Below, piece after piece: positions 5,480-7,856 of a DNA stretch of 7,944 bases. The notes beneath the pieces were generated by a model, which saw only the letters and a program-made list of their open reading frames with translations, made no database searches and was not told where the DNA came from. Position 1 is the first letter of the stretch. Every line of letters begins with the position of its first letter. This DNA comes from a bacterium (GTDB lineage: Bacteria > UBP15 > UBA6099 > DSWB01): assembly GCA_020061125.1 (NCBI GenBank), contig JAGUYV010000269.1, forward strand, positions 1 to 7,944, given 5' to 3'. A program made the position numbers and the translations under genes.

Positions 5480-6325
5480 ATGAAACGCCACACGCTGGAT
5501 CTGGAGCCTGGACGCAGTGCGCGCCGCGGGATCAATGCTACAGGCATACTTGCGGTCCTGGTTTTTTTCGCCGCGTCCATTGTCATAGGCAACTGGGCGG
5601 ACGGCAGGCTTCAGGCTCCGCGGCCCGCGGCGAAGCCGCGGGCATCCGGCGCGCCCCAAGCCGCCTCGCAATCTTCCGGCAAGGTCCAGACGCTGACCCT
5701 CGAACCGGAACGCGTTCCTGAAACTTCCGCGCAAGAACAAGCCGCGGACGAACCCGCGCAAGCCGCGCCGCGTGACTCCGCGCAATATGAGAACAACCTC
5801 GTAATCACGGATGCTCCGGTAAAACCGGCAAGGCAGCCCGCCCCCGCGGCTTCCCCGTCCGCAGCAGCCCCCGCAGCTTCCTCACGCCCCTCCCCTGCCC
5901 GCTCCGTTTCTCCCCCCGCGCCGCCGCAAGCCGCCGCGGCCGTCAAATCCGCCTCTCCCGCTCCAAAACCCCCGGCGCAGTCCAACCCCGCCATGAAACC
6001 CGCATCCTCCAAACCCACGGCCGTGAGCGCCGCGGCGCCGGACACGGTCGTGCGCGTCAAGCCCCCGGCCAACGCCTCGGCTTCGGACCCCTTCTATTCG
6101 GTGCGCCTCAACAAGGCCGAAAGCAAGGTCCTGGCCGATGTTGTCGCCGACACCCTCAAGAAGCACGGGTTCGACGATGCCGCCGCCGTGCGCACCCCGG
6201 ACGGCCAGTACTCGGTCAAGGTCGGAGATTTCAATTTCCGCTACGCCGCGGAAAACGCCAAAAAGCAACTCCAGGATCTCGGGTTCCAGGAGACTTACAT
6301 TGAGGAGAAGACCGTGGCGGAGTGA
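5480..6325 (+). CDS. Membrane-anchored SPOR-domain protein
   Basis: The 281-residue protein has a short cytoplasmic N-terminus and a single transmembrane helix (about 20-38). A long linker rich in Pro, Ala, Ser and Lys (about 43-202) follows, and then a C-terminal SPOR domain (about 204-277: FYSVRL, an amphipathic helix, GQYSVKVGDF, helix, LGFQETYI). SPOR domains bind the peptidoglycan strands stripped of stem peptides that occur at division sites, and the FtsN/DedD-like layout suggests a role in septation or wall remodelling. No catalytic domain is visible. The frame is open further upstream, but the ATG at 5480 has GGGAG (5465-5469) 10 nt before it, sits just after the TATAAT, and gives the canonical short N-terminus. 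Its TGA stop directly abuts the first heptad of the cassette that follows; the SPOR domain itself looks complete. Confidence 0.88.
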   Translation: MKRHTLDLEPGRSARRGINATGILAVLVFFAASIVIGNWADGRLQAPRPAAKPRASGAPQAASQSSGKVQTLTLEPERVPETSAQEQAADEPAQAAPRDSAQYENNLVITDAPVKPARQPAPAASPSAAAPAASSRPSPARSVSPPAPPQAAAAVKSASPAPKPPAQSNPAMKPASSKPTAVSAAAPDTVVRVKPPANASASDPFYSVRLNKAESKVLADVVADTLKKHGFDDAAAVRTPDGQYSVKVGDFNFRYAAENAKKQLQDLGFQETYIEEKTVAE

Positions 6326-6353
6326 GCGTGTAGCGTGTAGCGAGTAGCGTGTA
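6326..6353 (+). repeat. Left terminal inverted repeat of the cassette (four heptads)
   Basis: Four tandem heptads of the form GCGNGTA, with N = T, T, A, T, begin on the base after the SPOR stop codon. They are the inverted counterpart of 6870-6897 (26 of 28 positions complementary). The adjoining GGGAAAGGC (6354-6362) also pairs in part with GTTTTCCCC (6861-6869). Confidence 0.9.
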
Positions 6354-6424
6354 GGGAAAGGCAAAAGCAAAGAAAAATCGAATCGCCGGGGCGCACACGC
6401 GGGATGCAACAGTGAGGAGGTCGT

Positions 6425-6793
6425 GTGAAAACACGCAGCTACAAGGATCTCATTGTATATCAGAAGTCGTATGCTTTATGTTTGGAGATCTACCGGATTA
6501 CCGGGGAATTTCCCAAGGCGGAATTGTACGGACTGACATCGCAGATGCGGCGTGCGGCGGTTTCCATTCCATCGAATATCGCGGAAGGATACAGGCGCAG
6601 GAACAGGAAAGAATACATGCGCTTTTTGCGTATCGCCCATGGGTCCTGCGCCGAGCTTGAAACCCAGCTTGCACTATCAACAGATCTCGGGTTTATGCCG
6701 GAAGCTCACGGCCAGGAAGCGCTGGCCGCGCTCGACGAAGTCAGCCGTATGTTGCGCAAAATGCATCAAACACTGGAAAGCAAACAAACCTGA
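6425..6793 (+). CDS. Four-helix-bundle protein, 23S rRNA intervening-sequence (IVP/S23) family
   Basis: The 122-residue protein matches this family throughout. It begins SYKDLIVYQKSYALCLEIYRIT (5-26), has FPKAELYGLTSQMRRAAVSIPSNIAEG in conserved spacing (29-55), and continues with EYMRFLRIAHGSCAELETQL (63-82) and a final amphipathic helix (95-118). Four helices are predicted with no membrane segment. The family was first seen in insertions within 23S rRNA genes (Leptospira, Coxiella) and is related in fold to the Avd accessory protein of diversity-generating retroelements; its biochemical role is not established. Here it is not in an rRNA gene. The start is GTG with GAGGAGG (6414-6420) ending 4 nt upstream. 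Codon choice differs from its neighbours, including TTA, GTA and three AGG codons close together. It lies centrally between the two inverted heptad repeats. Confidence 0.92.
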   Translation: MKTRSYKDLIVYQKSYALCLEIYRITGEFPKAELYGLTSQMRRAAVSIPSNIAEGYRRRNRKEYMRFLRIAHGSCAELETQLALSTDLGFMPEAHGQEALAALDEVSRMLRKMHQTLESKQT

Positions 6794-6816
6794 TCAGTGG
6801 ACGGCGTCTGATTTTT
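6793..6816 (+). terminator. Weak candidate terminator after the four-helix-bundle gene
   Basis: ATCAG (6793-6797) can pair with CTGAT (6808-6812) just past the stop codon, followed by further T to 6816. The stem is only 5 bp with a 10-nt loop, so efficiency would be low. A GATAAT (6819-6824) lies next to it and could be a -10 for trxB, but no good -35 accompanies it. Confidence 0.25.
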
Positions 6817-6869
6817 GGGATAATTTACTGTCATGTACAGGGAACCGCCCGATCAATCCGGTTTTCCCC

Positions 6870-6897
6870 TACGCGCTACTCGCTACACGCTACTCGC
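6870..6897 (-). repeat. Right terminal inverted repeat of the cassette (four heptads)
   Basis: Four tandem heptads of the form TACNCGC, with N = G, T, A, T, end 4 nt before the AAGGAG ribosome site of trxB. Together they are complementary to the left repeat except at two of 28 positions. One of these would be a tolerated G-U pair in RNA. Confidence 0.9.
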
Positions 6898-6917
6898 TGA
6901 CAAGGAGTTTACAAGCA

Positions 6918-7856
6918 ATGGATAAATCCCGATACGATGTCATCATCATCGGCGCTGGCCCGGGCGGGCTGACCTGCGCCATGTACATAGCGCGGGCCGG
7001 TCTGACGCCCCTGGTGCTTGAGCGCGGCGGCCCGGGCGGGCAGATGCTCGCCACGGAGCTGATCGAGAATTATCCAGGCTTCCCGGATAATGTGACCGGA
7101 ACGGAGCTGGCCGAAAAGCTCGTGGAGCACGCCAAACGCTGGGGCGCGGAAGTGGCCTACGGAGATGTCAAAGAATTCTGCGCGCGCGGCGAGGACAATG
7201 CGATCTGCGTGCAAACCGCGGCGGGCGAACAGCTCACCTGCCGCGCGCTTGTGCTGGCCACGGGCGCGGCCCCGCGCAAGGTGGGCTTCAAGGGCGAGGA
7301 AGAATTCATCGGCCGCGGTGTGAGCTACTGCGCGCTGTGCGACGGCAACTTCTACCGCGGCCGCGATGTGTGCGTGGTAGGCGGCGGCGACAGCGCCGTG
7401 GAAGAAGCCGTGTATCTTAGCAACATCGCCAAAAGCATCACCGTGATTCACCGGCGCGAACAGCTTCGCGCCAAAAAGGTCGCCCAGGACGCGGCCATGG
7501 CGCGCGACAATATTTCCTTCCGTTGGAACTCGGAAGTCGAGGAAGTGTTTGGCACGCAGTTCGTCGAGGGCGTGCGCGTGAAAAACAACAAGACCGGGGA
7601 ACAGAGTGAGATCCCCTGCGACGGCATTTTCTTTTATGTAGGCATTGTGCCGGCCACGAGTTATGCGCCTGACTTCATCGAGCGCGACGAGCTTGGCTTC
7701 ATCAAAACCGACATGAAAATGCAGACCAGCAGCCCGGGCATATACGCCGTGGGAGATGTGCGCCGGCCCATGGGACGGCAGGTGGCCACGGCCGTGGGCG
7801 ACGGCGCGGACGCGGCTATCGCCATCCAGCACTATCTGCTCGAATATCCCTGGTAA
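6918..7856 (+). CDS. trxB: Thioredoxin reductase (NADPH)
   Basis: This FAD enzyme passes electrons from NADPH to thioredoxin in the cytoplasm. The 312-residue protein has the standard length and order. The FAD-binding GAGPGG (12-17) comes first, then GGQMLATELIENYPGFP (40-56) and ATGAAPR (114-120). The redox site is CALC (C138, C141) followed by DG, and the NADPH motifs are GGGDSA (155-160) and HRREQLRA (178-185). The C-terminal FAD motif is GIYAVGD (274-280), followed by RQVATAVGDGA (287-297). The usual CATC is CALC here, a common variant. The frame is open well upstream through the heptad repeat, but AAGGAG (6902-6907) with 10 nt spacing fixes the ATG at 6918 and the FAD motif near the N-terminus. 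The next gene's ribosome site overlaps its stop codon. Confidence 0.96.
   Translation: MDKSRYDVIIIGAGPGGLTCAMYIARAGLTPLVLERGGPGGQMLATELIENYPGFPDNVTGTELAEKLVEHAKRWGAEVAYGDVKEFCARGEDNAICVQTAAGEQLTCRALVLATGAAPRKVGFKGEEEFIGRGVSYCALCDGNFYRGRDVCVVGGGDSAVEEAVYLSNIAKSITVIHRREQLRAKKVAQDAAMARDNISFRWNSEVEEVFGTQFVEGVRVKNNKTGEQSEIPCDGIFFYVGIVPATSYAPDFIERDELGFIKTDMKMQTSSPGIYAVGDVRRPMGRQVATAVGDGADAAIAIQHYLLEYPW

Follow-up and report, generated by a model that had tools for sequence, protein, structure and literature searches.

The window, that is, the whole stretch of 7,944 nucleotides analysed here, corresponds to the entire contig 13 of a bacterial genome of 4.1 Mb, assembled in 513 contigs and 79% complete. 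It carries a small cassette located between a SPOR-domain gene and a thioredoxin-reductase-type gene. The cassette is composed of one S23-family gene flanked by two inverted arms of heptads. The features of the locus are the following:

5480-6325, + strand: SPOR-domain gene, presumed insertion target (PF05036, E=2.5e-5, and the list of open reading frames); its stop codon TGA is 6323-6325
6325-6356, + strand: left arm, five AG anchors spaced by 7 nt, (AGCGNGT)x4 then AGGG, as read in the sequence; this form is common to 8/8 full-length arms of the same genome
6357-6413, + strand: A-rich inner stretch and leader; the first ~20 bases (AAAGGCAAAAGCAAAG) are similar to the tail found after solo arms
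6414-6420, + strand: ribosome-binding site of S23, GAGGAGG, as read in the sequence
6425-6793, + strand: S23 / 23S rRNA intervening-sequence protein gene, 122 amino acids, GTG start (TIGR02436, NF008911, PF05635 and PDB 2gsc matches)
6867-6898, - strand: right arm, inverted, five AG anchors, AGCGAGT AGCGTGT AGCGAGT AGCGCGT AGGG on the - strand, from the sequence and the other arms of the genome
6902-6907, + strand: ribosome site of trxB, AAGGAG, left intact, as read in the sequence
6918-7856, + strand: thioredoxin-reductase-type gene (trxB), downstream neighbour (PF07992, E=3e-52)

An earlier note on this DNA described four GCGNGTA heptads on the left, four TACNCGC heptads on the right, a single IVP-family gene between them and TGA on both outer sides, the left one being the SPOR stop codon. 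Direct reading gives the same layout and coordinates. The left heptads are GCGTGTA GCGTGTA GCGAGTA GCGTGTA (6326-6353), the right ones TACGCGC TACTCGC TACACGC TACTCGC (6870-6897), and the two TGA are at 6323-6325 and 6898-6900. A slightly different outline, 6325-6898, suits the element better. Every one of the eight full-length arms in this genome has an A before its first GCG and AGGG as its innermost unit, which gives an arm of the form (AGCGNGT)x4-AGGG with five AG anchors. Since the outermost anchors take up the A of the left TGA and the T of the right one, the two TGA do not count as separate support for a 3-bp target duplication, and the duplication proposed for this locus is doubtful.

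The product of the cassette gene belongs to the S23/IVP family. It matches TIGR02436 with 129.7 bits (cut-off 24, E=5e-38), NF008911 (4e-41), PF05635 (1.9e-40) and the structure 2gsc (2.9e-23). The 2gsc entry holds five chains. In PMC4990558 the S23 structure is called a homopentamer made of four-helix bundles, and the same description appears in a title cited by PMC3936711. S23 genes were found in 19 of the 57 genomes searched. The dN/dS ratio is 0.04-0.21 in all ten informative pairs, three further near-identical pairs being uninformative, and S23 is therefore under purifying selection.

The S23 gene was previously known mainly from inserts in rRNA genes. Intervening sequences of this kind in Leptospira, Coxiella and Azospirillum encode S23/IVP, have a similar size and also carry terminal inverted repeats. 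The Coxiella one is 428 nt long with GACAGAT heptamers before the S23 ORF (PMC4990558), and inverted RGANGAC heptads are seen in the S23 insert of the Azospirillum 23S rRNA. In contrast, the window copy is located between the SPOR and trxB genes, and almost all the copies surveyed likewise stand between protein genes, at stop/start junctions. Because of this location, excision from rRNA by RNase III cannot be the function of these copies.

Inverted terminal repeats are also found in insertion sequences, DNA transposons and MITEs. However, S23 is the only open reading frame between the arms of the window cassette, which agrees with the earlier remark that no transposase is encoded. MITEs and REPINs are small as well, with inverted ends, many defective copies and short duplications, but the S23 element differs by its conserved protein gene, by tandem-array ends that vary between clades and by having no known parental transposase. 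An autonomous parent element with the same ends was not seen in the loci examined. Finally, Avd, an accessory protein of diversity-generating retroelements (DGRs), is a homologous four-helix bundle protein. Avd models match the window S23 below their cut-offs (NF033474, 2.5e-9; bAvd, 1e-7), and the S23 element is devoid of reverse transcriptase, template and variable repeat. As judged from the open-access literature, the S23 element lacks a defining feature of each class tested: the rRNA location of intervening sequences, the transposase of insertion sequences and the reverse transcriptase of DGRs. If rRNA intervening sequences were taken as the parent class, it would be a variant of that class.

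The arms are repeated in the genome to which the window belongs. The 24-base pattern TAGCGNGTAGCGNGTAGCGNGTAG occurs nine times in the 4.1 Mb and its reversed control does not occur, so the window arms are not due to chance. Seven further exact places have window-type arms but no S23 gene, several of them right at gene ends. In two solo arms, the host reading frame enters the array and terminates at its TAG. The only other S23 gene, on contig 488, is flanked by inverted arms built from another heptad, CCGGCNT, showing that the design of the arms is constant while the letters vary.

Solo GCGNGTA arms without S23 are located on contigs 8 (two), 31, 157, 164, 339 (two), 78 and 81, often directly 3' of stop codons. 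AAAAGC runs come after them, and in some cases also CCACAGAGG arrays like those of GxxExxY genes (see below), as if one arm had landed next to another. At the end of contig 81 (L024, 3922-4047), about 15 AAAGGC hexads adjoin a solo arm at the contig terminus, possibly reflecting an assembly break at a long simple repeat.

To what extent the arms accompany S23 in general was examined with 80 loci from genome contigs, 14 from plasmids and 5 from IMG/VR, the main count comprising 100 loci. A second sample contained 23 S23 loci from whole genomes, not picked for similarity to the window. The threshold for arms was derived from other lags. For the right flank, the stretch examined also took in the last part of S23, which arms overlap, and the mode at five units described below is then larger. 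Of the 100 loci, which come from at least 15 phyla, 89 have tandem arrays on their flanks, always with a period of 7 or 8; arms are not detectable in about 11% of S23 loci. According to record titles, the hosts include Nitrospirota, Desulfobacterota, Omnitrophota, Planctomycetota, Patescibacteria, WOR-3, Verrucomicrobiota, Acidobacteriota, Bacteroidota and Cyanobacteriota. In the second sample, 19/23 loci are above the arm threshold. Within 150-nt flanks, the mean signal is 8.9 at lag 7 and 7.1 at lag 8; control windows taken from these loci give 4.1 and 3.8, and lags 4, 5, 6, 9, 10, 11 and 13 stay at about the control level. The left and right flanks match as inverted repeats with a median of 30 within loci and 19 between loci. 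The median element length is 461 bp (80 armed loci).

Heptad arms accompany other IVP genes in almost all lineages that were sampled, a point that the earlier note had proposed to check. The idea of a class defined by the particular heptads of the window is not borne out as it stood, since the heptad sequence changes between S23 clades. All clades have in common a period of 7 or 8, AG anchors, an inverted layout and, as a rule, five units. S23 relatives are absent from 50,697 phage records and only five (L143-L147) were found among the 2.9 million viral contigs of IMG/VR; plasmids hold many. Among open-access papers, none was found that links S23 with heptad arms.

Comparison of filled and empty sites shows how these cassettes arrived. 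Five plasmid sites were compared on closed cyanobacterial plasmids, all empty sites coming from heterocystous cyanobacteria. In Trichormus variabilis plasmid C, a clean 428-bp insertion is observed with respect to 98%-identical empty plasmids of Nostoc linckia and Aulosira. The empty site reads AAAAAGTAATTAAC; the filled one reads AAAAAGTAAT, then the element (AAATCAG ... TTCTTT), then GTAATTAAC. Five base pairs, GTAAT, are duplicated across a stop codon. Scytonema has the same insertion, but its left arm is exactly two units (14 bp) shorter (L142 compared with L120): once inserted, an array changes in length by whole units. On a Nostoc plasmid, a cassette of about 417 bp is found in a second operon at TTCTAG..ATG with duplicated TTCT(A). 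One gene further down that operon, another plasmid has 506 bp with a different S23 and different arms inserted at a TAATG stop-start overlap, with ATG duplicated. At two more sites, one in Calothrix and one at TraM in Nostoc, the insertion is clear and its ends are less certain. A Nostoc ribonucleotide-reductase site, compared with an 85%-identical empty relative, is compatible with TTAG. L119/L132 also show a clear insertion, the exact duplication being masked by local rearrangement. The arms are absent from the empty sites and arrive jointly with S23. Decayed, internally deleted copies also exist (L129 and L134).

In the Nostoc plasmid pNPM1 (L135), a second heptad-armed stretch is nested within a disrupted S23 copy at about positions 985-1330. 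For Anabaena sp. 90, the Dolichospermum cas6-cas4 region was discarded as an empty counterpart, its intergenic DNA being unrelated.

These sites demonstrate mobility with duplications of 3-5 bp, and they bear out the view, first drawn from the window alone, of a mobile element of uniform design. The short target duplication is therefore retained for other loci, whereas its TGA version at the window locus is not. The window copy presumably moved in the same way. Four order-level relatives have no S23 between SPOR and trxB; a different gene of about 0.9 kb separates the two there, and these genomes provide no empty site for the window locus.

A preference for stop codons had also been suggested, and the association with stop codons turns out to be general. 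Among the 80 armed loci, the stop side of a neighbour facing the element is at a median distance of 2 nt, and at 30 nt or less in 55/73 cases. The stop is often supplied by the arm itself: when an arm faces a co-directional reading frame, the stop codon is inside the arm or shared with it in 59/116 cases, 46 of which are TAG. In 18 arms the AG of the stop codon is the first arm anchor. With a period of 7, TAG recurs in all three frames, and such an arm can therefore end any gene that it truncates. The stop association may mean that stops are chosen as targets, that harmless insertions survive, or both.

The number of units shows a preferred value. Exactly five AG (or GG) anchors in register are found in 40/89 left arms and 49/89 right arms, as well as in all eight full-length arms of the window's genome. 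Counts of four and six are the next commonest, and some arrays exceed ten. The peak at five holds for period 7 and period 8 alike. In the second sample it is weak (6/19 left arms, 4/19 right arms), and anchors other than AG or GG are frequent there. If slippage alone were at work, array lengths should show a declining distribution rather than a peak at five. These counts suggest one arm unit per S23 protomer, the five units corresponding to the pentamer, but the five chains and the five units may be a coincidence.

The arms look like protein-binding arrays, as judged from their sequences, because the motif is conserved and matched to the S23 tree while pairing between arms is not conserved. 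Mapped on the S23 protein tree, the array period requires 6 changes as compared with 22.8 after shuffling, with 0/500 shufflings as low; each period class spans several phyla, and related rows can inflate this test. When the two arms are placed in stem register, their variable positions match at 0.67, as compared with 0.659 with shuffled units (p=0.21, 48 loci). On this basis an RNA stem between the arms is disfavoured, covariation not exceeding the unit-shuffled level. This result weighs against an element acting at the RNA level, in which the arms would pair in the transcript, S23 would bind RNA as Avd is thought to do in DGRs, and a host reverse transcriptase would move the element. The relationship of S23 to Avd, the inverted arms, the like arms of rRNA inserts and the excision of the Coxiella intervening sequence by RNase III (PMC4990558) all speak for such a route. 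However, no reverse transcriptase domain (RVT_1, PF00078) was matched in the window's genome, 79% complete, and we regard the RNA route as unlikely.

Similar heptamers have been described on their own. The S23 arms of Nostoc-group plasmids (GGGAGTA, GGGAACA, GGTGACA, GAGTCAG and similar) are of the kind known as STRR. In Xanthomonas, Rehm et al. reported GGGAATC heptamers, mostly in four units and mostly just downstream of genes, at a mean of 28 nt from the upstream gene. They counted 70-75 convergent pairs in each genome and saw no general association with mobile elements (PMC4692102). The TAACTGA repeats of Beggiatoaceae are mostly upstream of start codons (PMC4679880). STRR, GGGAATC and TAACTGA repeats are all intergenic with 7-nt units, like the S23 arms. 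The heptamer papers propose regulation or G-quadruplexes. A word search of the texts of PMC4692102 and PMC4679880 returned no link to S23, and the TAACTGA arrays may be unrelated to S23 arms.

Could the heptads be neutral or regulatory microsatellites, generated by slippage or kept as G-quadruplexes, that stand near S23 by chance? S23-less heptamer arrays are indeed frequent in the window's genome, and the Xanthomonas and Nostoc arrays were described as G-quadruplex repeats (PMC4692102). This explanation is nevertheless already contradicted by the inverted pairing around a gene, the mode at five, the absence of arms from empty sites, their arrival with S23 and the agreement of period with clades. 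We give it almost no credit.

Altogether, we consider it fairly probable that the cassette is a mobile DNA element with S23 as its sole gene, in which the S23 homopentamer recognises the arrays and an enzyme supplied in trans performs insertion at gene junctions. The homopentamer would recognise the inverted end arrays, with one AG-containing unit of 7 or 8 nt per protomer. Two pentamers, one on each arm, would then pair the element ends in a synapsis. A nuclease or recombinase from elsewhere would insert the element at gene junctions near stop codons, giving the 3-5-bp duplication. On this view, rRNA intervening sequences that carry an S23 ORF would be copies of this element inserted in rRNA genes. 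Binding of S23 to the arms, synapsis, the enzyme in trans and the match of pentamer to five units are inferred. TRAP, an 11-mer ring protein, binds a series of NAG triplets in RNA at regular spacing and has a regulatory role. It can serve only as a working analogy for S23: it is an unrelated protein with an RNA target, and acts in regulation rather than mobility.

Alternatively, S23 could be a passenger, the arms being recognised by an ordinary trans-acting transposase as in a MITE. The inverted ends, the 3-5-bp duplications, the solo arms and the internally deleted L129 and L134 resemble MITE biology. On the other hand, the loci examined did not reveal any transposase between arms of this type. 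Moreover, the array period tracks the S23 tree and S23 is under purifying selection. Passive carriage of S23 appears very unlikely.

S23 might also be the recombinase itself, invariant polar residues on two helices forming an active site with which the pentamer cuts the arms. Across 95 S23 proteins, Q40, E54, G55, S74 and E77 are invariant and N51, R43, R58, Y23 and S47 nearly so. The invariant set, which makes this possibility worth considering, exceeds what a passive scaffold would seem to need, and the element holds no other gene. However, the role of these residues might just as well be to stabilise the bundle or the pentamer, profile searches revealed no known nuclease signature and no activity is reported in the literature examined. 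We view this proposal as improbable, and retain S23 as an arm-binding protein helped by an enzyme in trans.

A parallel case is provided by the GxxExxY family, which belongs to the PD-(D/E)XK nucleases according to a profile match. All three GxxExxY genes of the window's genome (L178 on contig 500, L179 on contig 72 and L180 on contig 285) are flanked by inverted arms with about three units of CACAGAGNN type. Loci beyond this genome were also sampled (L183-L209), and the 9-nt units seen around GxxExxY genes are CACAGAGNN, CACGGAGNN and CACGAAGNN. In 24 loci, lag 9 reaches 9.4 as compared with 4.8, and the flanks are inverted beyond the 99th percentile in 13. GxxExxY co-occurs with S23 (13/22 genomes as compared with 4/29, p=0.001, raw counts irrespective of genome size). 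A general class may tentatively be imagined, in which a small multimeric protein moves its own gene by means of tandem-array ends whose number of units follows the symmetry of the protein, five for S23 and about three for GxxExxY. Solo arms would then be the source of much of the heptad repeat content that is unexplained in bacterial genomes. We hold this broader idea to be possible, though on the doubtful side.

On two plasmids with type I-D CRISPR loci (L115 and L122), from two cyanobacteria, an S23 cassette is located between cas6 and cas4. IVP genes were reported as CRISPR-associated or near cas genes (PMC3936711, PMC10910872), and such reports may be explained by cassettes inserted in cas operons, as at cas6-cas4.

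The S23 cassette ties the rRNA intervening sequences to free-standing copies. On the basis of the cyanobacterial plasmids, it also offers a possible origin for unexplained heptad repeats of cyanobacteria and Xanthomonas. A candidate role now exists for S23, a common protein without an assigned function: that of recognising the arms of a mobile element devoid of transposase. This role is testable, since the heptad gives a ready prediction of the binding site for every S23 clade.
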